A DNA stretch of 64,000 nucleotides from Zygnema cylindricum. Its lineage: Eukaryota; Streptophyta; Zygnematophyceae; Zygnematales; Zygnemataceae. This document shows positions 6,168-38,993 of the stretch, piece by piece (the stretch's first letter is position 1; every line of letters starts with the position of its first letter). Both the position numbers and the translations under genes were made by a program. The notes under the pieces were generated by a model. The model was not told where the DNA came from and searched no databases. It saw only the letters and a list, made by a program, of their open reading frames with translations. The stretch spans positions 32,839 through 96,838 of the forward strand of contig JBBHKE010000726.1 in the NCBI GenBank assembly GCA_037447655.1, read 5' to 3'.

Positions 6168-8075
6168 GAGTATGGCCCCTTGTCACCTTAGTGCGGAGGG
6201 TGTCCGCGTGTGACGACTTGTCCAGCCGGGTGGTATCTACAGATTTAGTAGAGTACCCCAAGAGGACAAAGACGAAGGAGAAGACGAAGGCCCATACTTG
6301 GGATATGGTGTATTCCCTCTGGTCGTGCGTCCAGATCGAGCAGAAGGTGGGACTTCGGAATTCGAAGATGGAGAACGGTGGTGAGTGGGAGAATAGGCGG
6401 GAATAGTGGTATGAGCGGAAGTGATAGTCAGCCCGACCTCAGACTCGGAGAGTGAGGTGGGAATGTCTCTAGACTTAGGGGTATGCCTAGGGGACTGAGA
6501 GGAAGCAAGAGGAGGAGGAGAAAAGGGAAGATCTAGGGATACTCTAGGAGATGGCGAAGGAGGGGTTTAAGGTCTCAAGGGAATGTGAATTCTCTTGTCC
6601 GGTCGTAACTCCAACAAGGCTTCCACATTTAAAGAGACCTCCACAGAGACAAAAGTGGGCCTTTCCCGAGGAGCAAAAGCAAATTCACGAGGTAAATCAG
6701 CACCCAAACCCTTTATATTTGGTTCTCTGATTTCCCCCCCCTTCCTGCTATAGAAGAGTCTCTCAGCTAGTCTCCAAGGGAGGAATGTCGAGTTGAGTCG
6801 TGCGATAGGAGAGGTTCCTTTAGTTGGCGCTTCAGAATGCGGCCCAATCCCTAGAGAAGGGGGGATCTGCCCGCTAAGAATCCCACTTCACCTACGCCAA
6901 GTTTCCCGAATAAGCTTCAATTCTTGTTCCCATAAACTCCTCCTTTCTACCTCAAAGGTCTCATTATCTACTGCGGTAAATCCCACCCCCGCCGTAGCGT
7001 TCCCCTGAGATTTCATAATACATAATCGTTCTTGAGTCCTCGTGACTACACTAGTTAGGTTTGCTATTCCCATATCCAGAATTTCAAGATCGTTAGGCCT
7101 AGTCTGCCACCATCTTTCAGACGAATCTTCCGGTCCCGTTCTTAGAACCTCTAAAGCAGTAGGTTCATATTGCCAAAACCATTCGGAAGGGCAACCGAGC
7201 AGTGCGGCTGGAGAAGGTCTCCCGCTTGAGGCTGATAATTGAGGTGGGGACGTCTCTTCTTTTGGAAGAAGAGCAAATCTCCTCTTGTTCTCACGGTGGT
7301 CGAACCTCTTCCCCTTCGCAAAATCTCGCGATTCCCTCCTACCAGTCTTTTCTTCTTAAAGAGATCGAGAAGTGGTACGTCCCCTGGATGGTCTGCTAGC
7401 AAAAGTGTCTTGGGATGAAGATGGAGGGGGGCAAGGATAGGGATCTCTCTGGGGCCAGTCTTATAGAGACTTTGAAGAACTACTATCGGAAGAACTACTT
7501 AAAATCTCCACAACCCCTCCCACAAGTCTAACCACCCTGGCTTGATCTGTCCAAACCACTCTTTGAACTAACTCCCTCTTCACCTTTAACTCATGTAGAT
7601 CATGAAGAGCAACGAGTTCCTTGCATCCAAGATGACATGGATCCGCCAATACCGCGGGGTCAATAGGAATTTCAGCCCTAGGTACCTTAGATCGAGTATG
7701 AAACCCGACCTCCAAAAATGACCCAAAAAGGGCTCCCTAAGAGCTAATCTCTTTTGTCGGGACGTGGGAGACACTTTCTTCCTTTCCTCAGCTTGGGCCC
7801 TGGGGGCCTCTGCCCCAAATGGGAACTGTTTGGGAGTTAGGCTAGGAGGAGGTGGAGGAGCGAATGCCCTAGATGGTTCCTTGGCCGACGAATCAAAGAT
7901 GGCAACCATTGGGACGCATTCCTTGGACATCTGAGACCCTTTTTCCTGTACGGGCTTCCTTTGCCTACCGTGCTCTCAAAATCAGATATATGGGGTCTCT
8001 CCTCCCCCCATAAGATGATGGCAGCGGGAAAGGGAAAAAAAACATAAAATGGAACCTTAACTCCCTTCCACAAAG
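6168..8075 (-). other. Upstream part of the Gag-like region, no intact frame
   Basis: Several minus-strand frames of 60-114 codons overlap here (for example 7586-7930, with Ala/Pro-rich text). Base composition is close to that of the Gag-like segment downstream, and GC is higher than in the flanks. I read this as decayed coding DNA of the same element, but I could not join the frames, and nothing is recognisable by motif. The plus-strand frames show no family either. Confidence 0.3.
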
Positions 8076-9866
8076 AGAGCTTCCACTGTCAACACTCCTA
8101 TCCCCTCTAATCCGAGCGAACAGTTGCTTTTTCAATACTATACTTTTCTAGTGAAATTCAAAACAAATGCTCCCTCAAAACCTACTATTTTGATCAAAAG
8201 GTTTTGGCAAACTAATCCTAACAACACACCCATAACCAAAAAGAACTACCAATAAGGCACACTTGAACTCCCACGCAGGAATATAGGAAAGAACAATAAT
8301 AGGCCGTTTTAGTTTTAACAATATCACCTTGCGAAAGAAAAAGATAATAAAAGATAGAAATTAAAATGATAGCAAAGCGAGCTCAACATACCCTAAGAAT
8401 TAACGATGACCCAAAAGAGAAGTTGAAACCCTTCCGATGGTACCGAAAATAGGTAAGATCCTCCTTCACAACGCGGTTTCCGCGACTCAGAAACGACAGG
8501 ACTCTTTTCAGTTTCAACAACAAAAAGTCAAAATCGCCCAAAAGATGGATAGTACCAACTTGCCGTTCAAACTACGATCTCCACAAAAGACTCATTCAAA
8601 ACCAAGATGGCAATAGAGTCAAAAACACACACAAGATAAAGATTCTCCAAAATAAGGAATGCTTGGATTTTTTGAGGATTTTGTCAAGAGACAGTAATGA
8701 AAAAGCAACCTTTCTCCTTCGGCCCCAAGTGCCTTATACATCAAAGTTTGTCCAATTCTAGGTCCAAAAGTCAAAGTTATGCTATTAACCAATTAGCAGC
8801 AAGCAAGTGTAATTGAAATGAAAAAAGAATAAATAAATTGTACTACACTTGAGGCAAAAGGTTATGCTCCTGACTGCGGCTATATCCACAACCGGAAGTA
8901 ATTATTCGTTCCACTATAATAAGACAAAGTACTGAAAAGGACACGAAAGTGCCAGACTTTGACCTAAGGTAATTAATGGACCAAAGTTCAACTGAACCTG
9001 AACTGAGTTCTTATTGACACCTAACAGCATAATCTAGATGACAATCCGAAAAGTTACGTGGCAATTGTCAATGTACTCCCCACGAGGGCTGGTAGAAACT
9101 AGTCCCATGTAACGCAATTGCAATCTATGAGACGGTAGAACTTGGTCGTTCGACCTCCGTTAGGCGCAAAAGTAAAGTGCGTTTTGCTCAGTTTAGGAAA
9201 TAGAAGGATCTCGTTTGGACTGGTACACTCACTCCTCTATACTCTGATGGCCGTACGGGGTAGGAAAGGCCTAGAAATCTATGGTGGTACAAAGGTGTGC
9301 CAAAAATGCACACGAGCTTGACAACAGGCCGTTGAAATAAATGTTCGCAACGTTTGTTTCGTGCGGTACTTAATGCACAACGGAGTCTATGCTATGAAGT
9401 CCGTTCTTTTAGTTAAATGGAATTCAATACGTATCAATGTTTAAATAGGTATCGCTCCCTATATATATCAGCACAAGTCTTATACTCTAGGACAATGCTA
9501 ACCGCTACAAGCTACTTTGACGGACGGTAGGTACTAGGATGTGTTGTCCATAGCCATTTTCAGCCATGGATTTACCCTCGGAAACACCACAGACTACCCA
9601 AAAACAGCCTACTTTGAATCAACACAAAATTCTACAGTAATCATAAAACATGCTGAATCTATAATCACACACTGTTTCTAGGCTATAAAATAACCTTACA
9701 AAGTTTTAGACAAAAGAAATTAACACTGTGATCACATCATCTAGTCAAAGTTGCACAAAAATAGTCTTCCATAACTTTGATATAACCGACCAACTTCACA
9801 ATGAAGTAAAACAAATACCAGGCTTACAATACCCTTGCAAATCTGCGAAAATATAGACAATACAAG
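8076..9866. other. Gene-less repeat DNA with a second LTR-end-like block
   Basis: No coding frame is supported. 9440-9545 repeats the arrangement seen at 5270-5350: a TATATATA box near 9460, then ACAAGTCTTATACT, GCTAACCGCTACAAGC and GACGGTAGGTACTAGG. It is best read as the end of a diverged LTR or leader of the same family. The remainder shows no structure I can name. Confidence 0.4.
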
Positions 9867-9876
9867 NNNNNNNNNN
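9867..9876. other. Assembly gap (10 N)
   Basis: A run of exactly ten N, the same length as the second gap. It is most likely a placeholder of unknown true size. Repeats on either side make it risky to read anything across it. Confidence 0.98.
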
Positions 9877-10620
9877 CCTTTTGTTGTCTTTTTTTGGGAT
9901 TGAAATAGTGTATTCTTTCACAAAATCTGGAGCAAACTCTTAAAAACGTAAAAAAACAAAACACAAGTGTAAGGGTTTTTAAAGTCGTAATGGGCACATA
10001 TGTGAAGCTGTATATTGTACGCCGTCGCCGATTAAATAATCTTTAATGACGTTAGGTAAGGCTGTATGTTACAATTAGCTGAGAGCCAAAGATTCCCGTA
10101 ACTGGGTACATTAACATTGAATCGTTTGATTGAGACATAAGATGGCTTATAAGAGATATTTTAGAAAAGTTCACAGGGTTACACATTGTAGGCTGTTAAT
10201 TTTGTGGGTTAATGGAGACCACAAAATTTCAGTAACAATTTTGTTGTTACACATTGGGACACTTGAAAAGATTTTATAGAGAATATTCGGTAGAATACAG
10301 AGTTAGTTTGCTAAGTTACAATTACATGGGTCAATGCCCTTAGAAACCGAGAGTCGATTAACATTGTATGTCGGAATGGATTGCAGTAATTTCTAATAAA
10401 TTAGCCGCTGCCGCATGTTATATGTCGAAGTGTATACACGGGTAATGCTGAAATTTTTGGGAATGTGAACACAAAACAAAAAAATGCAAAAATTCTCAAA
10501 CGAGGTCTAAAACACTTTCTTATGTGATAAAGTTAGGGTTTTTTTCTGTTGTTTTCCTCCAAAACTTAGCCCTCAACGAGAAAATCCTCAGCCGCACCAA
10601 AAATTTGAAATTACCATATT
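9877..10620. other. AT-rich DNA without a gene
   Basis: No frame above background. One short piece near 10186-10240 (GGCTG then GTGGGTTAATGGAGACCACA) repeats 3783-3820, where GGCTGCTC is followed by GTCAATGGAGACCACAGAATT. It is a fragment of the same dispersed family. Confidence 0.4.
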
Positions 10621-10932
10621 CTAATTTGCGTCACTTTGAAACTTTAAATGTAATGCAGTTTGTCGTCTAACGTGTTTCGACCCACTTTCACGTCCCGCCT
10701 GCTCATCTTCAAACTTATTTTCAAATTTCATCGAGGTGATTTTAACTAAAGTTTCATTAAGCGAACAAATAGGGACGCGTTGTCCCACACGTCTTAAGTT
10801 TTGGAAAACTTTTATGCGTGGAGTACCAAAAAAAAAACCACCACAGGTTTCCAGTCTGTGTGTACTTTTTTCCGTGGACTTTTTTCCGTTCATGGACCGT
10901 GTAGGGGTCTCGAGCAATGAATTCCATTCCAC
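10621..10932 (-). CDS. Hypothetical small ORF, partly conserved in the second copy
   Basis: A 103-codon frame whose centre (HRLETCGGFFFG then VPICSLNETLVKITS) reads similarly in the paralogous unit at 36800-37015 (HRLDTCGGSFFG then LYGNLFKITS). Conservation of the frame between two diverged DNA copies hints at past coding, but one pair is weak evidence and the conservation could belong to the DNA. No known family is recognised. It lies divergent to the short plus frame at 11122. Confidence 0.25.
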   Translation of the reverse strand: MEWNSLLETPTRSMNGKKSTEKSTHRLETCGGFFFGTPRIKVFQNLRRVGQRVPICSLNETLVKITSMKFENKFEDEQAGRESGSKHVRRQTALHLKFQSDAN

Positions 10933-11340
10933 AAAAAGCGAAAGGTGCCTCTTTCTCTCTCCCTCTCACACTACCGCGTCTATCTCACAATTCTCGCGAT
11001 GAAAGACGACAATAACGGTATTAAATGAAAGATTTCTGAAAAATATTAATTTTTATTGTCTTTTGGCGTATTTTGATTGCAAGTAGAGGGATAAAAGACG
11101 AAAAAACACAATCGGGAAACCATGGCGGAAAGTTTTGGAATTAGTGACGTCGATGCTACTATAGGTGAGTTTGACGTCAAAATGTCACAACCCCTAAACA
11201 TCTACAATGTCACAAAAAATTATAGTACAATACACACCTACAACCGTCCATATTTTGTAAACGTCATCAATTGTCGCAAGTTTTGCAGTCGTCGACAACC
11301 ATCACAAATTACACACGTGTCTACATCCGTCACAATTTAA
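10621..11340. repeat. Duplicated promoter-like unit, copy 1
   Basis: This 0.7-kb stretch has a diverged second copy at 36800-37420. Both hold, in the same order, a minus-strand ORF piece sharing the text TCGG.FFG (10621-10932 here), a CTCTCTCTC pyrimidine block with a TATCTCACA..TCTTGC-type motif, the block TCGGGAA.CCATGGCG, and several TGACGTC elements with TGTCACAA. The ATG at 11122 opens a short frame (MAESFGISDVDATIG) followed at once by a GTGAGT donor-like site. I infer a promoter plus first exon, perhaps carried by a transposon. No downstream exon was found. Confidence 0.5.
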
Positions 11341-12205
11341 AGTAATGATTTCATTCCGTTACATCGGAACGCTCTGAAATCAAAAAATCTTTGCTAAAAA
11401 ACAAAGTATTAAGACTACGTTTCGGTTACATGGTAAAGTGCCCTAGGTTTTACACTGTTAAAAAAACTCTATTCCCAGTCATTGACACTAAAAAACACCA
11501 GCATGTGCATAGCTCAATATCGCACTTACCACTGATCGAATTGTTATGCGGTTAGAAGGTACATGTATATTGTACCTTTGTACCATATCGTGGTTGGATC
11601 AGCTCTTTCCAGACCTCATTTTTCCATTTGTCTTTCTGGTGTCTTTTTTTTTTCATTCTCGCTATCGTGACATTTGACGACGTCAAATTTTGGGGGACCA
11701 CAACCGACTTAAAAACCTCTCACGTGGTAAAATTCTGTTGGCCAGCTCCCTAACAGAGGAGTGACGTCAAAATTTACGTATTTGGGAGAGAAAAGTGTCG
11801 TGTGTCATTTTTAACTTTTTGCGCTAACCCTGGACTCTTGTTACAAAGGACATTTGCCCTTAGGGCGTCGTCCATGTTTAATTTTATGTTCGGAGTAGTT
11901 GTAATGTCATCGAATAGATTTAATTTCCAAGAACGCGATGGTAATACCAACAAAGTACAAAACATGATTGTCCCTAAAAAGTATTGATGACCAACAAAAG
12001 TTAAAGACCAAAATTCTAAAGGACTAAAAACACAACAAAAATGTGTTAAAAGCCTAAAAGGAAAGAAACAAAACAAGTACAACAAATTTAAAATATTGAA
12101 ACACTACAAACTACGCTAAAGCCTCAAACTACGCCCAAATAAAGATCAGAACTTTGGATGTCGTCTATATAAGCTAGGTTATCGCATAAAACATGAGAAG
12201 GTACA
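11341..12205. other. Gene-less AT-rich stretch
   Basis: No supported gene. TGACGTCA-like elements (near 11680 and 11765) carry on from the preceding unit. The frames at 11774-12085 look random. Confidence 0.4.
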
Positions 12206-12560
12206 AAGCTGCAAAAGTACAAACGTACACACATACAAAAGTACAAACATACAAATGGTACAAAAGTACAAACGGTACACACGTACAACCCGTACACACA
12301 TACATCCCTTACACACGTACAAACGTACACACATACAAACGTACACACATACAACCGTACATACATACAAACTGTACACACATACAACCGTACACACATA
12401 CAAACGTAAACATACAAATGTACACACATACAATAGTACACACATCACGAACGTACACACATTCAAACATACACACATACAAACGTACACACATACAAAT
12501 GTACACACTTACAATCGTACAAAAGAACAGGTGTACAAAGTTACAAATGTATAAAGGTAC
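12206..12560. repeat. GTAC-rich minisatellite, 16-bp unit
   Basis: About twenty tandem copies of a unit close to GTACACACATACAAAC, with single-base variants and a few 9- to 12-base units. The array is open in several frames on both strands (Tyr/Thr/His/Lys-rich on plus, Cys/Val/Tyr-rich on minus). The reason is the repeat, not coding. Confidence 0.92.
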
Positions 12561-12668
12561 ATCGAAAGGTTTGGACCTGGTACAAACCTGCGTCACATAG
12601 ATGATAGATCTCAGGCGATAGGTTGCAGTTGCTTCACTAGGCGATAGTAGATGATTGCCAAAAAGCTA

Positions 12669-13208
12669 CACCGCGAATCGTTATTAGGGTTTTAATTTAA
12701 ATAGTGTTGAAGAAAATTTACCGTAATTGATGCTAATAAAGAATTTGATTTTTTTTTTTAAAAAGGTGTATTCTAATTTCGGCGTTTATGCTAATTTGGG
12801 AACAGCAAAAATGGAATTTTCGCCGTACGATTATATACATTAATATATGTATCCGTACAAAATATTAGAAATCGTACGCCGTCGCGAATTTAAAATATCC
12901 GTACATTTCATACTAATTTACGTGTCAGACTAATCCCGTTTTTTTTAGCGCACGTTCCTATGCGTGCGCGTATAATTGAATTCATTTTTTATAAATTTTC
13001 ACTTGAAAAGGTACATTTATGTACGGTATGACATCGACCGTACACCACACTATTTATATTTTATTATAATTTCGGGCTTTACGCTATTTTGTACGGTACC
13101 TTAATTAACGTCAAGGAAAAATTAAAATCATGTATCCTATTTGAAAAAAAAAATCAAAATTTTAAGAACCCAAATTAGTGACTTTGACACTAATAACGAT
13201 TCGCGGTG
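12669..13208. mobile_element. TA-flanked MITE, 540 bp (CACCG-family)
   Basis: The ends are CACCGCGAATCGTTATTAG and its inverted counterpart CTAATAACGATTCGCGGTG. TA lies directly outside both ends (12667-12668, 13209-13210). No ORF, AT-rich, with internal CGTAC motifs. The TIR and TA target duplication fit a non-autonomous Tc1/mariner/pogo-type element. The assignment to that superfamily is by TSD and TIR only. Confidence 0.88.
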
Positions 13209-13210
13209 TA

Positions 13211-14444
13211 GACTACATGTTGGCTAATTGGCTTAGCGAAGAAAGAAATTGTGGCATATGGCGCTGGTTTTATAAATACTAAAGCGTCATACTAATTATC
13301 CACAAGGTTAATCATCTAATTGGTCAAACAGCATGTCTCCCAACTGATAGAGTGATGTGGTTCTCCAAACACTGAAAAAATAAATAAATTGAATTATAAC
13401 ATTGATTAGAATGTAGAATCCCTTTATATTGGAGCTGAACAGTTTACATAAATGGTTAACATTAACTTGCCACATCTTTGGAAAACCATTCAGTTGTAGT
13501 TTTGACAATATGAAGTTGATTAAAATAAAACCTAATCATAAAAAAAGAAGACATCTCATAGTTAAACCAAAATTTGGTTCATACAATGGCAACTAATTGC
13601 CATGAAAGCAATTAGTCAAAGTTGCACATTGGTATGGATATTTTTTTTCACAATTTCAGAACACAATTTTTGATATAACAATGAGCAATAACTGTCATGA
13701 ATAAGACAAAAAACATATACAATGCACAAAATCGAAAACAGGGAGTAGACAAGATTTTCCAAGTCTACTGCGAGTCCAAAAACAAGTATAGCAGTTTTTT
13801 TTCCCCTCCCAAGCTGAACACATTGTTTTTTCAAACATTCCCCAAAGCCATATTCATATCATGTCACAAAAGTGACAAACCAAACTTCCAACTCACCAAT
13901 TTGACAAATATATGTATTTTTTTTCGGCAAAAAAATGTCACATTAATTTTGGAAACGCTGTACAAGGATAACATCTCACTAATTTTGGAACCCACTCTCT
14001 AATTTTAGACTAAACGACGAGAGAAGAAATTTTGAACCTCAAAGAAAAAGGTTAGAAGATCAGTCAAGGGACTAATTTTCACAGCTAGCCAGCTGCCCTA
14101 CGGAAAAAAAGAAAGAAAAAAAAATTAAACTTCCTATAAAATCTGAATGTATGAACAGAAACCAGGGCAATTTTGAGTCGGTCAAGAAACCAAACTCTAC
14201 CGAAAGTCCTCTTCATATTTTGTCATTTAAAATCTACTTTTCTCATTTAAAATTACAAAAACCAACTAATACGAGCGAAGGGAGCATCGGAAAAGGCTAC
14301 GATTGCTTCCGTTCAAGCACTATGAAAAAAACCGGAAGAAAATGAAACTTTTGGATATGAATACTCCCGATTGTCCTTTTCTAAACAGATAGTATTCCCT
14401 TTTTACTTATAAAATTAAATACAAAGTTTGGGATATTTGAAATT
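13211..14444. other. Gene-less region downstream of the transporter gene
   Basis: AT-rich, with poly-T and poly-A runs. No coding frame is supported. The last part (14340-14444) should include the 3' UTR of the minus-strand transporter gene, with AATAAA-like signals on the minus strand not clearly placed. Confidence 0.4.
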
Positions 14445-17400
14445 TTAATGAATTGGGGCGTCTCCCGATTGAAACTTGCGGTTGTTGATTTCCGGAGGAA
14501 GCGCCAAGGTCAAAAGAAGGGCGACCACATGAAGGAGACCTAATAATAACCATGCGAAATGGTAGTCCAATGGGAAGAAAGCGTTAAGACCAATACTCCA
14601 AGCAAAAGTACTTCCAATTGTCCATGGGGCAGCCGCTTGAAATAAGGAGAGACCAGTAGTTTGAGCCCCATTTAAAACTCCCAAGTATTTGGGGTATTTG
14701 ATACTATTGTTGAAGAGGATAAACATCGCAGCCATGCCTGTCTCGTTGAAACTGGAGAGGGAGAGAGGGAGGGAAAGGACGGAGAGAGGGAGGGAAGAGA
14801 GTGAAGAAGGGAAGTGAGAGGGAAAGCGGGAAGAGAGAGGGAGAGAGAGCAGAGGGAAAAAATAAAAGAGAGAAGAAAAAGAATAACGACAAGGTCAGTT
14901 GAGAAAACAAAATCGCAGAAAAGAAGCATTGGAGAGAAGAGGGGAAAAACAAACAAGAGAGGAAAGAGGGAAAGAGGAAAAACAAATAAGAGAGAGAGAG
15001 AGGGGAAAAACAAACACGAGAGAAAAGAGAGAGGGAAAAACAAGCTTACCTTCTGATTGCGAAAATAATAATACATGCGATTTGAAGAGGGACTTTGTTA
15101 TCTCCCAACAATCGAACCATGGGGATTGCTGCCTGGAAAATGCCCGTGAAGAGAGAGAGCTGGAGGGCTCCCACGGCTCCGAGCTTGTTGATGAGCCAGG
15201 GATAGAGGAAGAGAGTGACAGGAATCTGAAAATAGGAAAAGGGGAAAGAAAAAGGGTAGAGATTTGTTGAACTAGGATAGAGATTATAAAAAGAAAGTAC
15301 GTGGGAAAGTTGGCGAGAGAGGGAGACAAGAAAAGAGGAGGAGAGGGTAAGGAGAGAAAGGGAGGAGAGGGTAAGGAGAGAAAGGGAGGAGAGAGGATGG
15401 AGGAGAGAGAAGGGAAACGGGGGAGAGAGAGAATGAAGAGAGAATGACTGAGCTTAACAATAGAGAGAGAGAGAGAGGGAGAGAGAGAGGGAGATCGTAC
15501 AAGGGTGAGTCCAGAAGCGCCTTGAGCGAGACCAACATTGGAAGTGACAAATCCAAGGCCTCCATACTCCCAGTCGGTAAGGGCCCAAAGGGGGAAAAGC
15601 TGAAAATAATAATGAAAAAAGTCTAATTAAAACATTTTTCATTGGAGACTGATAAAAAAAAATGTCGACGTAAGTGGGTAAACAAAGAACTACATGGACA
15701 AAGTGGGTAAACAACAAAATAAAAAATAAGTGAGAAAATTATATTGAGAAAGTGATTAAAGAGAATTAAATGGAAGTGGAAAATGGGCAAGCTTAGTAAA
15801 TATAGTATTTACCAATTTGGATAAAATAGGGGCTTACCTCCTCGAAACCGGTGAACATAAATCCAGCAAGACAGAGGATCGCCAAAGTCATAACTGAAAT
15901 ACAGAAAAAAATGAGGAAAATGTTTATAACTTTGATAAGTTTTACTACAATTAACAAAGTTTTACTAGAATTAACAAACTTGACGAAATCCTAATTATTA
16001 TTTTGACTTTGACCACTCTTGATTCATGAAATCTCCACATCGTCCTTCTCTTTTTAGCCTCAAATTTAAAGGAAGAACTAACAAAAAAGAAAAAGGCTAC
16101 CCTCACTCTAAAACTTTAAAACATTAAATACTTACGAGTTTCTCTGTTTCCGAAAAAGGCCATAAAGAGTCCCGGGTCTTCGTCTTCTACCATTCCCGAC
16201 TCGACAAGTGTAGTTTCTCCCTTCCCTCCCTTAGTTTTGTTTTCCACACTTGGTTTTGTTACCGCATTTCTCGACTTTCCGAGAGTTTCTTTGAGATAAA
16301 TAACGCAAAGAACAATACCCACTAAAGTCAAACAGGAAAGGACTAAATTGGGTAAAAGAAAGGGGAAAATTCCAAAAAGTCCGTTCGCACTGAAAAGACT
16401 GGGATACTGGATTGCCGGAGTAACTAAAAATCCTCCAACAAGGGGACCTGTATAAGGGAGAGGGAGAGGAGAGGGAGAGGGAGAGGGAAAGGGAATCGGT
16501 AAGAATTTAGGCCAAATTTAATGCTCAAGTCAATTTTAAAGTTTGGCTTTATTTTGTCAAGTTGGTGTGAATTCAGAGCATCAACTACGATACGGAAAAA
16601 CAGGAGAGGGAGGGAGAGGGGGAGAGAGAGAGGGAGAGGGAGAGAGAGAGAAAGAGAAGGCCACTCACCGGTGATGAGTCCAAGTCCCCAGCACAGACCA
16701 TACACAGCAAATCTGCAAAAAAAAAAAAAAAGATAAGGCGACGAAAGTATAAATGCCATTATGAGTGTCGATGATCGAGAGAGAGAGAGGGGGAGGGAGG
16801 GAGAGGGAGAGAGGGGGAGAAGAACAAGAAAAGAACTAGCAAAAGTTTATCGAATATAGGCTTTACCCTTGTGCAACATTGCTGTCGTCACAAATTTCCG
16901 TAATCGACCTGCAATATAGATTAAAAAAAGGGAATTAAATGTCAGTTAAAAAATTTTAAACACAGTATTGACAAATTATTATTCATGTAAAGACTACTTC
17001 CAATAACATGTGATTCTTTTCTTTAGGATTGATTATGCTCCCTCACATCCTCACTAAAGTACACCAGAATAGGAAAAAAGATAAAATAATGCGGGCACTG
17101 TAAAAGTCGCTCCAAAAGTGAACAAAAAACCAGTAAATACAAAAAACCAGCAAATAGTGTGGACATTTTGAAGTCGACTTAAAACTCACGTTTTTGCGAC
17201 GACGAGAACAGTACAGACTAAACCCAAAATAAATCGAGTCGAGACTGCCATCGGAAAAGAACTACTGAATCCAAACCAGAGAGAGAAAATCATATTTCCC
17301 GTGAGACCTATCAACATCACTGTCTTGCGACCGATGATGTCAGATATGTGCCTGCATCATCCACACAAAATACATTATTGTTACCTCAAGGAGAGCGGGA

Positions 17401-17499
17401 AATTGGGGAGAGGGAGAGGGAGAGAACGTTATGTGTTTGTGCGTATATGTGAGTGAAAGAGAGGGAGAGGAGAGGGAGAGGGAGAGAGAGAGAGAGAGG

Positions 17500-17588
<89 letters not shown>

Positions 17589-18327
17589 GGGGGGGGGGGG
17601 GGGGGAGAGGAGAGGAGAAAGATAAAATCTTGGTTTTTTGAGTGAGAACTTACCCCCATACTGGACCAGAGAGAAGACTGCCGATAAAAAAACAAGATGC
17701 CAGCATTCCAGCATAATACCTGCATTTATCAAATCACCACAAAAAATTACAAATTTAAACTCATGCAGAAATAATGAGAGAAAATGTCTTTAATTGAGCG
17801 AATTCTCAATACCTGCATTTTTCAAATCACCAAAAAACTATATGTTGGAACTTAATTTTGAAAAATAAGAGCAAATGTATATTTGTCAAAAAATCTCGAC
17901 ACTTTGCATTACAAAAACTCAATCAACTTCAAACTTGAACAATAACATCAATGATAGCAATAACAATGAAGATAACAAATACAATAACAAGAATTAAATA
18001 AAAGCTATTGAGGATTCACTCTCACCCGACTTGTGAAGTATCGTCTGTAACGCCAAATGTTGTGACAACAAGAGGAGAGAAGGGGAAAAGAACTGTGATA
18101 ATAAGAGAATTGGTAAAAAGAGCCACTCCAATGGCAGAAAGGGCAGCCATGGGAAGAGGAGTAGGGAGAGTGACAATCTTTCCAACTGAAGCTTGTTTTT
18201 CTTTTGTGTCATTCAGATTTGACTCTGTCATTGTAACTACGTCGGGTCCTGTAACAGAGAGGGAGGGAGAGAGGGAGAGAGGGAGAGAAGGGAGAGAGAG
18301 AGAGGAAGAGAGAGGGAGGGAGAGAGA

Positions 18328-18388
<61 letters not shown>

Positions 18389-18974
18389 GACTTTTAATTC
18401 CAAGTAAAATGTAAAGCGGAAAAGGAAGGGTGATGAGACACACAAAAAAGTAGAATGAAAAGGAAAAATGAAAAAAAATGAAATTCTAAGATTTATAAAA
18501 TGACTGAGTAAAATGGGTTAATTCAATGGTTTGAAAAAATGAACTAAAAAATAATTTAAGCCCAAACAAAAAATAATTAGAAGATGAAGTGAATGTGAGC
18601 TTGCTAAAATAATTATAGGATTAATAAAATGTAGTTTCAGTAAAAAGAAATCCCAAAATTATAAAAATGAATTATCTGTAAAAAACTATCACAATAATTT
18701 TCTGAATTAAAGCTTTTATAGTGGTAATTGCTTAGAATTGCAAGGGGAAAAGAGTTTCAAGTTTTTAAATATTTCAAAAAAAATTAAAGATGATAATGCG
18801 ACGAGGCAATGTTTTAAGCCAAGCGCTGATAAAGTTGTTAAAGTTTTGCATTTGGGAAATTAAAATCAATATATTTCCTTCAAAAAAAAAAATTTAACAG
18901 AAAAGTACTAAACTAAAAAATATACTTCAAATCTCACCTCCTTCTAGATAAGTTGTCTCGTTCTGAGGAGGCAT
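14445..18974 (-). CDS. ZIFL-like major facilitator superfamily transporter, 11 exons, 507 aa
   Basis: Exons in coding order: 18938-18974, 18026-18248, 17654-17719, 17190-17351, 16867-16908, 16669-16712, 16136-16447, 15838-15893, 15501-15599, 15050-15225, 14445-14751. All introns are GT..AG, phases agree and the sum is 1524 nt. The sequence follows the ZINC INDUCED FACILITATOR-LIKE / tetracycline-resistance-like MFS pattern: YYAGMLASCFF in TM2, motif A GHISDIIGRK (about residues 109-118), GLGLITGPLVGG with QYPSLFS and FPFLLPN, a hydrophilic loop rich in Lys/Glu between the two halves, LFPLWA, and NNSI..NGAQTTGLSLFQA in the C-half. Twelve membrane helices are expected. Family members export small solutes or metal chelates at the vacuole or plasma membrane. 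The substrate here is unknown. The start MPPQNET is the only ATG in that exon frame, and an upstream non-coding exon is possible. Confidence 0.93.
14752..15049 (-). repeat. Intron 10 filled by CT-rich (sense) microsatellite
   Basis: Nearly the whole intron is GAGAGG-type purine repeat on the plus strand, so CTCTCC on the transcript, running right up to the acceptor. It carries several overlapping shadow frames. Confidence 0.9.
15300..15500 (-). repeat. Intron 9 CT-rich microsatellite
   Basis: GGGAGGAGAG and GAGAGAGG units on the plus strand, including two exact GGTAAGGAGAGAAAGGGAG copies near 15346-15388. On the transcript it is a long pyrimidine tract. Confidence 0.85.
16450..16660 (-). repeat. 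Intron 6 CT-rich microsatellite
   Basis: Two GGGAGA blocks (16455-16495 and 16602-16658 on the plus strand) frame an AT-rich centre. The first lies directly upstream of the exon 7 acceptor on the transcript. A third block lies in the preceding intron at 16775-16822. Confidence 0.85.
17400..17630 (-). repeat. Intron 3 compound GA/GT/GA/G microsatellite
   Basis: On plus: GGGAGA units, then (GT)n at about 17500-17534, (GA)n at about 17535-17586 and a long poly-G at 17588-17605. The pure runs suggest recent slippage and the assembled length may be wrong. Confidence 0.95.
18250..18392 (-). repeat. Intron 1 GA microsatellite ending in poly-G, beside the exon 2 acceptor
   Basis: (GGGAGA)n then (GA)n then poly-G on plus. 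On the transcript it is a pyrimidine tract running directly into the exon 2 acceptor CTGTTACAG. Confidence 0.95.
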
Positions 18975-19004
18975 CTCTCCTTCCTTGTTTGAATTATCTC
19001 CCTC

Positions 19005-19100
19005 ACTCTCTGTCCCGTGTTCTCCTTCTCTCTCCCTCTCTCTTCCTCTTCCTCTCGCTCCCACTCTCTCCCTCTCTCTCCCACTCTCTCCCACTATATT
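19005..19100 (+). repeat. CT-rich microsatellite in the transporter 5' region
   Basis: TCTCCCTC units on plus, upstream of the start codon at 18974, so GA-rich on the sense strand. This is the opposite polarity to the introns of the same gene. It probably lies in the 5' UTR or promoter. Confidence 0.85.
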
Positions 19101-19209
19101 CCTTACAGGAGCTCGGCCAATAATTGAACTGGTTACTTCGAATCTGCGACGCACGAAAAAAATAGGTGTACGAAAAAAATATCGTGCGAAGCTGCGTCGG
19201 TTGTAGCGG

Positions 19210-20055
19210 CGCTCAGAGAGAGGGCTTCGAATCGAACTTTATGCTACAGGCGGAGAGGAGCAGAGACTGGTTTGAGTGAAACTGGAGAATGGGAGAACTC
19301 TTACATGCACTTTCAAATCTGGCGGCTGTCACGTCACAGCGAGACACGCGGTACGAACGAGCCGCAGGCAGCGAGAGGTGGCACGTGTCAAAATTGCTCA
19401 GTTATTCACCGACAAGTACGGAAAGTTAAACCAATACTTCGGGGGCCGGAAGTCCCGCAGTGGTTTTCGCGCGCGCGTAGTAAAGGAGGGTATTTATTGG
19501 TTCGTACGTCTGTGAGGGTACGGAAAGTACATGGGAGACTACGGATACTTTTGGACTGTAAAGATGTGAAGAAGGTAAACGTGGAAATTTAGGATAACAG
19601 TATCTGCTCGAACGTGGGGGTGGTACATCACGTTACCGTAATTGACAATTTGAGTCTTGGTGACGGTTATCTGCAACGGATAATCTACATAGAAACACAA
19701 ATAAAGGCAAATTTTACAGAAGGACCGTAGTCTCTCTCTTGTCGGAAAATCCGAAAGGCAGAAGGACTAGTACGGTCTATTGAATATTCTATCTTGTCAG
19801 AGCCGCGTCATGCGGGTAACTGCAATAGTGACGCTCTTGAGTTTTGGCGTCAAGTATACAGTACCGCAGCATCATACAGTTACACCGTACAAAATTGTGA
19901 ATCTGGAAACGCGCGATTCCCGCCGTTCGATGTGTTCATCGGAACTTGTAATTGGCTGGCAAGTTGAAGAATCGACCAGATTTGCAGAGTAAAACAAGCC
20001 TAATCGGACGGTCCAAGATGGACAATGTGAGGTTGCAAGTGGCTAAAAAATGCAG
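19210..20055. promoter_or_regulatory. Region upstream of the transporter gene
   Basis: No supported gene, and short frames only. It should contain the transporter promoter, but I cannot place a TATA box or start site with confidence. GC is higher than in the flanks near 19160-19500. Confidence 0.3.
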
Positions 20056-30299: not shown

Positions 30300-30903
30300 C
30301 AGTACACCGCGAATCGTAATTAGAGTAATGAAAAAATTAGAGTAAAAAAACCAAAAAAAACAATTAGAGTAATGAACTCTAATTTATGTACTTATAAATT
30401 TTTTGAAAAAAAAGTTATACACTAATTTTTCAACGAACGCCAATATGGGTACAGCTGATTTGTCGAGAGGATATCACAGTAATATAGGTAAAGTACAAAT
30501 TCTGACAATTCGTACACTGTCGCATACTTTAACTCTAATTAATTCCTAACTCTAATTTCAGTTTTTTAGGGGTGTAGGCAATACGCGACAAATAAATGTA
30601 CACTAAAACAGGTAGAGGTACGAAATATTTTAATTCACAGGGCAGTTTTTCGTGTGATAGAAGATATTTTTAAAAATATCTGTACTTGTGTAATTCAAAA
30701 GTACATTTTTATACGGACTGACACGTTTCGTACTCCACACTAATAAAAATATACATAAATTAAAATGGTGCACACTAATTGTTCATCTCGTAATTAGCGT
30801 ACAGGAAAAATTAGTATCGTTTACCCTATTTTAGGCAAAACCCTCAAAATTTAGGGGCGCCGAATTAGTGTTCAACACGCTAAATACGATCGACGGTGTA
30901 CTG
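30300..30903. mobile_element. MITE, CACCG family, long-terminus form, 604 bp
   Basis: The ends are CAGTACACCGCGAATCG and its inverted counterpart CGATCGACGGTGTACTG, with TA immediately outside (30298-30299, 30904-30905). The core between CACCG and CGGTG is 594 bp. The CAGT start next to TA resembles Tc1/mariner/pogo termini. No ORF. Confidence 0.88.
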
Positions 30904-31181
30904 TACAGTACTGTACTTTCCTGTGCCGTATATTACTCGTACGGTATAATTATAATGCTGTATCTTAAAGACTTAAAGTTCTATATCGTACTAATCCGGT
31001 CAAGGAGGCTAGAAAGAAAAGGGCATCGAAAAGAAAAGAAAATAATTTTCGTCGAGAAAAACCTGATTCTGGTGTATGGACGTATTATTGTTTGCAAAGT
31101 GTTGCTTCCAAACAGACGCCCTGCGATGAAAACGATCGTCCCTTGTCCATTTTTCGTGGGGGGGTGGTAATCTAATCGGTA

Positions 31182-32161
31182 CACCGTGAATCGCTATTAG
31201 CGTAATAAAAAATATAGCGTAATGAAACAATTAGCGTACTTTACGGTAAATTGTGTTTTTTCGGGTACACCATGATACTAATTTATCATGTACTCTAATT
31301 TGTAAACTGCTTTGTAAAAAATTTCGGCACGTAATATGTCCCCACTAAAACATGTAGATGTACAAAATTGTTCAAATCGTACGCCGTCGCGTTTTTTTGA
31401 CATCTGCGTATGCCGAAAAATATTTACGCAATTATATATTATTATATTTTCTGTACTTTTAAATTTTAAAATGTACGAAATAGTACACCGTGAATCGCTA
31501 TTAGCGTACATGAAGCTAATTGGGGTACCCCTTTTTTTGGGGCAAATTGTCAAATAGAATAAAGTACGCTAAATGTTTTTGCACGTTATTTGAGGTACCC
31601 CGCTCAATGCGGTTCATAACTGTAATTTAGTGTCCTTTTAAATAGTGTGGTGTACGGACTGTCAGATCTGTACTATTCCGTACATTTTAAAATTTAAAAG
31701 TACAGAAAATATAATAATATATAATTGCGTAAATATTTTTCGGCATACGCAGATGTCAAAAAAACGCGACGGCGTACGATTTGAACAATTTCGTACATCT
31801 ATATGTTTTAGTGTGGACATATTACGTGCTGAAAATTTTTACAAAGCAGTTTACAAATTAGAGTACGTGATAAATTAGTATCATGGTGTACCCGAAAAAA
31901 CACAATTTACCGTAAAGTACGCTAATTGTTTCATTACGCTATAATTTTTATTACGCTAATAGCGATTCACGGTGTACATATCTGACAGTCCGTACACCAC
32001 ACTATTTAAAAGGGCACTAAATTACAGTTATGAACCGCATTGAGCGGGGTACCTCAAATAACGTGCAAAAACATTTAGCGTACCTTATTCTATTTGAGAA
32101 TTTGCCCCAAAAAAAGGGGTACCCCAATTAGCGTCATGTACGCTAATAGCGATTCACGGTG
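31182..32161. mobile_element. 489-bp MITE (outer copy), split by an inverted second copy
   Basis: The left part is 31182-31485 (304 bp) and the right part 31977-32161 (185 bp), summing to exactly 489. Termini are CACCGTGAATCGCTATTAG and its inverse. TA flanks both ends (31180-31181, 32162-32163). Its TA at 31484-31485 became the target of the inner copy. The inner copy shows the uninterrupted form of the target, in which the same TA occurs once. Confidence 0.92.
31486..31974. mobile_element. 489-bp MITE (inner copy), inverted, inserted into the outer copy
   Basis: Same length, termini and content as the outer copy in reverse orientation, about 95% identical by eye. TA duplications are at 31484-31485 and 31975-31976. 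Together the two copies form an A-B-A'-B' arrangement with arms of about 304 and 185 bp. Neither has an ORF, so mobility needs a transposase from elsewhere. Confidence 0.93.
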
Positions 32162-32770
32162 TAGTGTTGGGTATCGGGTAGTTTCATATCGCGATAATTT
32201 CGATATTCGATATATCGAATATCGATCGAACAGATTCCTCGATATATCGTACCGGGACCAACATAAATTATCGCGATATATATCGCAAAAATTGCTTGTC
32301 CGTACAGTGAGAGTACGGACAACTGTACGAAAAAATGTACGTAAAATCGAACGAATAATCGTACGGAAAATTTGCCCCCTCCCCCACTGAGCGCTCGGGG
32401 GGGTTTGAAAAAATATATTGTCGATACGATATATCGGCGATATTACGCGATATTTCGATAATCAATATTCGGGTACCGAAGTGATATATCGATTATCGGG
32501 TACCCAAAATTCGGTACATATCGAATATCGGCAAGTGGTCTTCGATATCCAACACTACTAATCGGATTTCCCAACAAATTTTGACGGGCAGTCTGGCACA
32601 GGCGTTGAGCCCCGCATGCTAAAAAAAGAGCCAATCAGACAGTTTTTCGGTCCACCTCAAAATCACAGGGAAATTTCAAGTGTTCCGTACCGAACCAGAA
32701 TTCACCAACGTATACCGCTGTACAAACTTAACCGGAAACCGAAAGGGAGTTTATGGCGTCACGTACAGTA

Positions 32771-32969
32771 CACCGTGAATCGTTATTAGCGTTGATAAAT
32801 TATTAGTGTAAAGAAAAAATTAGCGTCATTCATTCTAATTTAGTGTCAGGATACGTGGCAGATTATGGTCCACTTCTTTAAATAGTGTAGTTTATTATAT
32901 TTAAGGTATTAATGTCAAAATTTTGGGGTGCCGATATAGAGTTCATAACGCTAATAACGATTCGCGGTG
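32771..32969. mobile_element. 199-bp MITE, CACCG family
   Basis: CACCGTGAATCGTTATTAG at the left and CTAATAACGATTCGCGGTG at the right. TACAGTA lies on the left and a single TA (32970-32971) separates it from the next element. An inverted second copy of the same length is at 39003-39201. Confidence 0.9.
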
Positions 32970-32971
32970 TA

Positions 32972-33471
32972 CACCGCGAATCGTAATTAGAGTAGGGAAA
33001 AAATTAGAGTACAAAAACTACAAAAAAGTATTAGAGTAATGAACGCTAATTTATGTGATAGAGCTGTTTCAACTATGAAGTTTACTCTAATTTATTTAAG
33101 TACTCTAATTTGGCACGCTAATATCCTCTATTGTAAATAAGGTATTTGTACAGAATTTGGCAAAACGTACAGTTTATCGTCACTATGACGTTTACACTAC
33201 GCGGTTTGTTAAAACGCAAGTACATGATAACGGCCTGTATTAAATCATTATTTGTACTTTTTTACTTAATAAAGTACAATTTTGCACGGTCGGAGGTCGT
33301 CCATACTCCACACTATTTAAAAAAAACTATATTATAATAAAAAACGCTAATTAAACTTTACCTTAAATAGAATGATGAAAATATTATAATATTTTACTCT
33401 ATTTCTTGTGATAGAGTCGAAATTTCGAGCAACCGAATTAGAGTAATTTACTCTAATAACGATTTGCGGTG
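32972..33471. mobile_element. 500-bp MITE, CACCG family
   Basis: It starts CACCGCGAATCGTAATTAG and ends ATTTGCGGTG, with TA at 32970-32971 and 33472-33473. 33762-34262 is an inverted, slightly diverged copy (501 bp). Confidence 0.9.
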
Positions 33472-33473
33472 TA

Positions 33474-33697
33474 CAGTACACCGTGTATCGCTATTAGGGT
33501 TAATAATTTTTTCGCCACTACGTATTTTCTCCATACACGCTTGTCGAATTTTCAATTTGAAACCTCCAATCGGAAGCTGCGAATGTTACCTTTCAATCTC
33601 AACCGTCAGATCCAAAATCCTATATGTATGTACAGAGAAAATATGTTTTTAAGTGGCAAAAAAACCATTAACACCAAGAGCGATTCACGGTGTACTG
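33474..33697. mobile_element. 224-bp MITE, long-terminus form
   Basis: CAGTACACCGTGTATCG to CGATTCACGGTGTACTG, with TA directly outside on both sides (33472-33473, 33698-33699). A related copy is at 46018-46192, next to the helicase gene. Confidence 0.88.
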
Positions 33698-33699
33698 TA

Positions 33700-34331
33700 C
33701 ACGGCGAATCGTCATTAGAGTCGATAAATAATTAGAGTAAAAAAACGAAAAAAGATAATTACACCGCGAATCGTAATTAAAGTAAATTACTCTAATTCGG
33801 TCGCTCGAAATTTCGACTCTATCACATGAAATAGAGTAAATGGTTCTAAATTTTTCATTATTCTATTTAAGGTAAAGTTTAATTAGCGTTTTTAGTTCTA
33901 ATATAGGTTATTTTTAAATAGTGTGGAGTACGGACGACCTCCGACCGTGCAAAATTGTACTTAATTAAGTAAAAAAGTACAAATAATGATTTAATACAAG
34001 TCGTTATCATGTTCTTGCGTTTTAACAAACCGCGTAGTGCAAACATCATAGTGACAATAAACTGTATGTTTTGCCAAATTTTGTACGAATACCTTGTTTA
34101 CAGTAGAGGATATTAGCGTGCCAAATTAGAGTACTTAAATAAATTAGAGTAAACTTCATAGCTGAAACAACTCTATCACATAAATTAGCGTTCATTACTC
34201 TAATTTTTTTTTATAGTTTTTGTACTCTAATTTTTTTATTACTCTAATTACAATTTGCGGTGTAGAGTTATGAACTCTATTTTGTGTACTCAACCCTTTT
34301 CAAAAATAAAGTTTACTCTAATTTATCAACA
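33700..34331. mobile_element. MITE remnant interrupted by a 501-bp MITE and cut by a third element
   Basis: The left part 33700-33759 (CACGGCGAATCGTCATTAG..) resumes at 34265-34331 after the inserted element. At the junction, ATAAT-TA-GAGTTATGAACTC matches the intact order CAATTAGAGTAATGAACTC near 30361-30380. The right half is missing where the element at 34334 starts. Confidence 0.75.
33762..34262. mobile_element. 501-bp MITE, inverted relative to 32972-33471
   Basis: CACCGCGAATCGTAATTAA to ATTTGCGGTG, with TA at 33760-33761 and 34263-34264. It aligns base for base with the reverse complement of the 500-bp copy, with scattered differences. Confidence 0.9.
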
Positions 34332-35454: not shown

Positions 35455-35464
35455 NNNNNNNNNN
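35455..35464. other. Assembly gap (10 N)
   Basis: Ten N placed inside a repeat shared with 4600. The true size is unknown. Confidence 0.98.
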
Positions 35465-38815: not shown

Positions 38816-38993
38816 AATGCCTCGATATATTGGCGATACGATATATCGGCTAAATATCGTGATATTTGGATAATCGATATATCGAGGCGATATATCGAGG
38901 CGATATATCGATTATCGGGTACCTAAAATTCGGTACATATCGAATATCGGCAAGTGGTCCTCGATACCCAAGACTACTAATTACGATTCGCGG
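38815..38993. mobile_element. 3' part of the hAT-like element
   Basis: It aligns with 32405-32557 (GATACGATATATCGG.., GATTATCGGGTACC, GGCAAGTGGTC) and ends CGATACCCAAGACTA. A CACCG-family MITE terminus (CTAATTACGATTCGCGGTG) follows at once, so it probably lies inside or against a MITE. The left end is missing. Confidence 0.75.

Follow-up and report, generated by a model that had tools for sequence, protein, structure and literature searches.

Recurrent insertion of a TA-duplicating MITE family at the terminal TA of hAT-type elements in Zygnema cylindricum

The window analysed here, a 64-kb stretch of Zygnema cylindricum DNA, contains a nest of transposable elements at positions 31172-32565. 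Its outermost member is a non-autonomous hAT-type element of 396 bp (32162..32557, + strand), with a left TIR TAGTGTTGGG at 32162..32171 (+) and a right TIR CCAACACTA at 32549..32557 (−; TAGTGTTGG when read on the − strand). The 8-bp TSD of this element, CTAATCGG, agrees at 8/8 bases between its left copy (31172..31179) and its right copy (32558..32565). Between the left TSD and the hAT lies a 489-bp MITE on the + strand that is split into two parts, the first of 304 bp (31182..31485), terminating in the TA at which the inner MITE inserted, and the other of 185 bp (31977..32161). This outer MITE is preceded by a TA at 31180..31181, which is the left copy of its own TSD and was formerly the terminal TA of the hAT, and is followed by the TA at 32162-32163, with which the hAT begins and which doubles as the right TSD copy of the MITE. 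The inner MITE, also of 489 bp and with the TIR CACCGTGAATCGCTATTAGCGTA, occupies 31486..31974 on the − strand, opposite in orientation to the outer copy, and is flanked by TAs at 31484-31485 and 31975-31976, the latter being its right TSD copy. A sequence-only reading had described this arrangement, and its coordinates were exact to the base throughout, including both CTAATCGG copies, all TAs and the 304+185 split. The window has 10-N gaps at 9867-9876 and 35455-35464, and the nest is free of both. At 870-2922, the window also holds frames of a Copia-type retrotransposon split by stops; RVT_2 is found in the first of these, and among eight window frames compared with Pfam it was the only one to give a match (Copia-type reverse transcriptase).

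Alignment confirmed that the TA-flanked, split MITE holds an inverted copy within it. With the inner MITE and one TA removed, the two copies differ at 13/489 positions (97.3% identity), and each serves as an empty-site reference for the other, as had been proposed. They had also been called the same MITE inverted, which stands at the level of the family; as individual copies, they are separated by 13 substitutions, and both have closer relatives elsewhere in the genome. In a tree of 52 rows, the nearest copy to the inner MITE is L028:1501 (5 differences; L numbers denote loci fetched from the assembly), while the outer MITE is nearest to three copies, each at 8 differences.

The order of events, hAT first, then outer MITE, then inner MITE, agrees with that read earlier and is forced, barring rearrangement of the parts, because the duplications are nested: the hAT TSD encloses everything, and the outer TA duplication encloses the inner MITE with its own TA. 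Sequence divergence is useless for dating the two MITEs relative to one another, the inner copy being 8 and the outer 9 differences away from the majority sequence of the 52 copies, with 3 and 1 private changes respectively; the insertion order is therefore taken solely from the nesting. We found no disabled hAT terminus of the kind that the outer insertion had been thought to produce. Instead, duplication of the TA rebuilt TAGTGTTGGG, so that a complete hAT end, consisting of the right-hand TA plus GTGTTGGG, directly adjoins the MITE and is intact in sequence, and it is the old flank of the hAT, its TSD, that was moved ~980 bp away by the MITE insertions. Because the TA is duplicated and the end rebuilt, terminal insertions need not break the hAT, and an element such as this one may retain its function.

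Inverted insertion of one MITE into the other produced the A-B-A'-B' interleaved palindrome noted earlier, and we located both pairs of arms. The first pair (31179-31487/31669-31977) spans 309 nt at 97% complementarity and the second (31474-31673/31974-32173) spans 200 nt at 96%. When the 980-nt MITE part was folded as RNA, the predicted energy was −572 kcal/mol, compared with an average of −212 over 20 shuffled sequences (z −43). In the predicted fold the first helix forms, and the crossing helices cannot coexist in one simple hairpin. Long hairpins from the interleaved inverted MITE copies could feed small-RNA silencing.

We searched the assembly (352.8 Mb, 2689 contigs) for both families. 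A hAT-only search gave 3478 first-look places, of which 40 were scored and the 39 besides the window were fetched (L101 is cut by a contig end). The 8-bp duplication, whose absence from other hAT copies would have counted against the earlier reading, recurs in the family: exact 8-bp TSDs flank 25 of the 39 other fetched loci. Two pairs of loci have a TSD word in common and may be duplicates. For the 25 exact TSDs the consensus is (C/G)TAATTA(G/C), and when both strands are read, giving 50 readings, the last base is C or G in 41. The TIRs of hAT elements begin YARNG, which fits the TAGTG...CACTA termini seen in most of the 37 copies printed; hAT ends were described by the pattern TAGTGTTG[GT]GTATCG. 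A second, partial hAT copy lies at 38825-38976 of the window and is 85% identical to hAT positions 252-396.

For the MITE, a MITE-only search gave 1636 first-look places, 40 of which were scored. With this many matches to either element, the observation cannot be put down to chance. Together with copies from a first query that contained the hAT and second copies within fetched loci, this yielded a set of 52 distinct full copies, the outer copy of the window included. The element is 489 bp long with a perfect 23-bp TIR that starts CACCG..AATCGCTATTAGCG, and the copies have a median of 8 differences from their majority sequence. A TA TSD is present on both sides of 51 of the 52 copies; these 51 were parsed and L052, whose match lacked one base and whose TA the script missed, was dropped. 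The 17-base MITE end has 14,070 matches genome-wide at ≤1 mismatch (reversed control, 37), and no stop-to-stop frame of 130 aa was found within the element. It is thus short, non-coding, bounded by TIRs, high in copy number and uniform in length, as befits a MITE. The family is probably Tc1/mariner-like, a superfamily that duplicates TA, and would be mobilised by a transposase acting in trans.

Insertion at the hAT terminal TA recurs across the genome, which extends the nest observation beyond what the single window showed. A 23-base junction, MITE end-TA-GTGTTG, was found 409 times genome-wide (≤1 mismatch; reversed control, 0), or at ~2.9% of MITE ends (409/14,070), a count that may include duplicates and so be inflated, because two of the junction loci, L118 and L119, share 98% identity across 1493 bases. 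Among parsed insertions, the MITE sits at the exact hAT terminal TA in 9/51 (95% interval, 8-31%), namely at L040, L034, L013, L049, two sites at L028, L056, L048 and the outer copy of the window, in a sample that includes the window copy that prompted the analysis and L013, which entered only via the first, hAT-containing query. Restricting the count to copies from the MITE-only search gave 6/40 (L040, L034, L049, L028:1501, L056 and L048). No MITE was found clearly inside a hAT among the 51 parsed sites; L035 lies between or near hAT-like pieces. Starting from the hAT instead, 2 of 39 copies not chosen for MITEs carry one exactly at one end (L088, L093). The share at hAT ends is lower in the wider MITE superfamily, where 12 of the 212 MITE-type ends in the window and 41 loci adjoin a hAT (1/23 in the 64-kb window) and the junction accounts for 409/14,070, versus 9/51.

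We read 24 of the junction loci (L102-L121 and L123-L126), 20 of which were every fifth of 100 listed, except that for one place already known the adjacent entry was taken instead. By eye, 20/24 (16/20 and 4/4) continue as hAT-type TIRs, and the remaining four do not read as hAT of the window type. The junctions involve the left as well as the right end of the hAT, and hATs of two subfamilies; the MITEs found there fall into length classes of 489, 501, about 519 and about 217 bp. Four hATs (L010, L018, L107 and L124) bear MITE ends at both termini.

What do these sites have in common with other targets of the family? Across the 42 MITE sites that lie outside hATs, the position table is palindromic around the TA, with C or G adjoining the TA in 81/84 half-sites and beyond it mostly T, then T or G. 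Scored with a motif built from these 42 sites, with positions treated as independent, hAT termini have a mean likelihood ratio of 27 and a median of 3.9 (n = 81), compared with 1.47 for TAs of the window (n = 4256) and 0.22 for hAT-interior TAs (n = 1738). The end of the hAT is used rather than its interior because this simple motif favours hAT termini over hAT-interior TAs.

The explanation that in our view best fits the data, and that we hold with considerable confidence, is a succession of hAT, MITE at its terminal TA and inverted sister MITE, in a genome where the motif leads MITEs to land on hAT ends recurrently and independently. In the nest, the 396-bp non-autonomous hAT-type element inserted first and produced the 8-bp TSD. 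Its terminal TA was then entered by a MITE from a large, TA-duplicating and probably Tc1/mariner-like family, and a sister copy entered, inverted, at a TA inside the first MITE. The terminal insertion obeys a palindromic target preference of the family, roughly ACA-S-TA-S-TGT. One half-site comes from the hAT TIR (TAGTGTT...), and the inner base of the other comes from the hAT TSD, whose last base is usually C or G. Because TIR and TSD between them supply these parts of the MITE target motif, hAT ends are recurrent landing sites, used independently many times. We infer that the motif is the main cause of landing at hAT ends.

The motif model nevertheless seems to under-predict the hAT-end share, given the number of hAT ends assumed. 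With 7,000-20,000 hAT termini assumed, it places 0.5-1.6% of insertions at hAT ends, versus the 9/51 observed. Across this assumed range, the observed share is ~3- to 30-fold above the motif expectation. Targeting beyond the motif, in which the MITE transposase is drawn by bound hAT transposase, by DNA bending or by a longer stretch of the hAT TIR, would account for such an excess. It would also fit the behaviour of TAGTGTT half-sites, which divide between hAT and non-hAT as 8:2 when inserted but as 2:9 across the window, an odds ratio of 18 from small numbers (p 0.009). However, the number of hAT ends is an assumption, the model was built from 42 sites with independent positions, and the 2/39 occupied copies in the unselected hAT sample are compatible with the motif alone within a wide interval. 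We regard targeting of this kind as possible, though rather unlikely. We are similarly tentative about a fuller version, in which a TA-duplicating family uses hAT termini as a neutral landing site beyond what the simple motif provides, rebuilds the end, occupies both termini in some cases and returns to a given TA over time.

The insertions at the loci read are independent of one another. At ten loci, each with a different TSD, the hAT TSD copy beyond the MITE still agrees at 7-8 of 8 bases: the match is 8/8 in the window, L009, L022, L105, L117, L088 and L126, 8/8 by eye at L010, where 5 extra bases, TACAG, lie beside the MITE, and 7/8 at L018 and L118. Of these, L126 is weaker evidence, because its TSD word CTAATAGC is also part of the MITE TIRs. 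In the MITE-centred set, where some places carry a second locus number (L009 is L056, L022 is L034, L018 covers the two sites at L028 and L010 is L040), a TSD copy agreeing at 7 or 8 bases out of 8 remains outside the MITE at 6/9 hAT-end sites, and L013 has 6 of 8. The 24 junction loci include five with 7-8 of 8 bases (L105, L117, L118, its near-copy L119, and L126) and two with MITEs at both ends (L107 and L124); at the testable loci L104, L108, L109 and L114 no hAT TSD was found, and in 13/24 the outer end was not found. L093, from the unselected hAT sample, runs off its contig.

These loci might instead descend from a composite, a hAT with a MITE fused at its end that was copied as a unit, such that the junction count would reflect duplication of a chimaera. 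Some junction loci are indeed mutual duplicates, including the near-identical pair L118/L119 and the diverged copies L107 and L012. The last two are 92.7% identical over 920 bases, the hAT end occupied in L107 being unoccupied in L012, with the occupancy reversed at a second MITE site. A travelling composite is nonetheless at odds with a different TSD at each of ten loci with the MITE inside it, with the use of left and right ends and of two hAT subfamilies, and with the variable lengths of the junction MITEs. The hAT pieces beside junction MITEs are 66-89% identical to the window hAT, whereas the MITEs are 94-98% identical to the window MITE. Nor do hAT-adjacent MITEs cluster in the tree, where their 9 rows require 9 label changes against a shuffle mean of 8.6 (52 rows). 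Because the TSDs are kept at ten loci and the MITEs do not form one clade, we read the junctions as repeated insertions; for the loci read, TSDs and tree led us to reject the composite, which we consider highly improbable. Equally improbable is the view that TE-dense regions simply gather all TEs, with no hAT targeting as such and the exact fit a coincidence: the window is dense, with 23 MITE-type ends, but density predicts insertions anywhere in the hAT whereas those in the sample are at its terminal TA, and 409/14,070 is far above the ~2e-4 chance of GTGTTG after TA expected from base composition. One further site, L048/L011 (L011:2048-3030), has a MITE exactly between two facing hAT right ends without a hAT TSD, perhaps through rearrangement or recombination between MITEs.

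The nest itself is ordinary, well-preserved TE nesting, and greater interest attaches to how often MITEs have landed on hAT termini. In the literature considered here, the closest analogue is bacterial: IS4321 and IS5075, of the IS1111 family, enter the TIRs of Tn21-family transposons, described as a 'safe harbor' (PMC8269217). The likeness lies in repeated insertion at a fixed place in the TIR of another family, and the MITE does show recurrent independent insertion at one such fixed position. Here, however, the genome is of eukaryotic type, the inserting element is gene-less, has TIRs and duplicates TA, and the place is the very terminal dinucleotide of the hAT; the target resembles a loose palindromic motif. 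We considered membership of the MITE in IS1111 and rejected it on the lack of a 130-aa frame, the terminal TIRs and the TA duplication, so the comparison is one of analogy.

Nested and multimeric MITEs have been described in rice and maize (Jiang & Wessler 2001, via PMC10664404), with 11% of rice MITEs reported to be in multimers. The window shares with these the nesting of MITE in MITE, and differs from what is described there in that the frequent host site is the hAT terminal TA and the hAT end is rebuilt. The SaTar elements of guayule and rice are non-autonomous, Mutator-like MULEs whose arrays have been described as uniformly non-nested (PMC5907723). They resemble the present elements in being short and non-autonomous and in forming arrays at a common target, whereas ours duplicate TA and are nested. 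Dada is the name of a family of DNA transposons that target multicopy small RNA genes. Eukaryotic DNA transposons reported to have such targets (PMC3706591) likewise show a strong preference for a repeated target, though that target consists of host genes rather than another transposon. No report of a eukaryotic transposon or TA-duplicating MITE targeting hAT termini was found among the titles and abstract openings listed from the open-licence literature. This base-exact, end-preserving mode of landing is a non-bacterial counterpart of the insertion sequences resident in transposon termini, and its some hundreds of natural replicates bear on how far local sequence alone sets the target choice of a transposon.

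Short spacers of a particular kind accompany the MITE family. Where TA-NNN-TA stands just outside a MITE-type end, the triplet is CTG in 31 cases and CAG in 13, with the others listed at ≤2 each (200 distinct ends, window and 41 loci). TACWGTA follows MITE-type ends at 30899-30915, 33472-33478 and 33693-33699 of the window, and also in L020, L025 and others. These TACWG units may be footprints left by Tc1-type excision or may mark a preferred target. At L010:1890-3020, a hAT with MITEs at both ends and the TSD GTTACCGG has on its left an extra TACAG that separates the TSD from the MITE, as an earlier visit to the terminal TA would have done by leaving a unit like an excision footprint. At window positions 32769-33762, copies of the MITE superfamily follow one another in a train, and neighbours either share a TA or are linked through TACAGTA/TACTGTA.

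Landing also occurs in the other direction. The hATs at L073 and L078 lie within MITE TIRs, their TSDs GCTATTAG and CTAATAGC falling in the TIR motif CGCTATTAGCG, and the hAT of L126, with TSD CTAATAGC, bears a MITE at its own end. In these few cases the ends of each family resemble the target of the other, and targeting may run both ways between hAT and MITE. Finally, at L051, L053, L060, L061 and L016 the MITE stands at a TA beside another repeat, ~TACCTGCGCGCAGC, perhaps the end of a third element.
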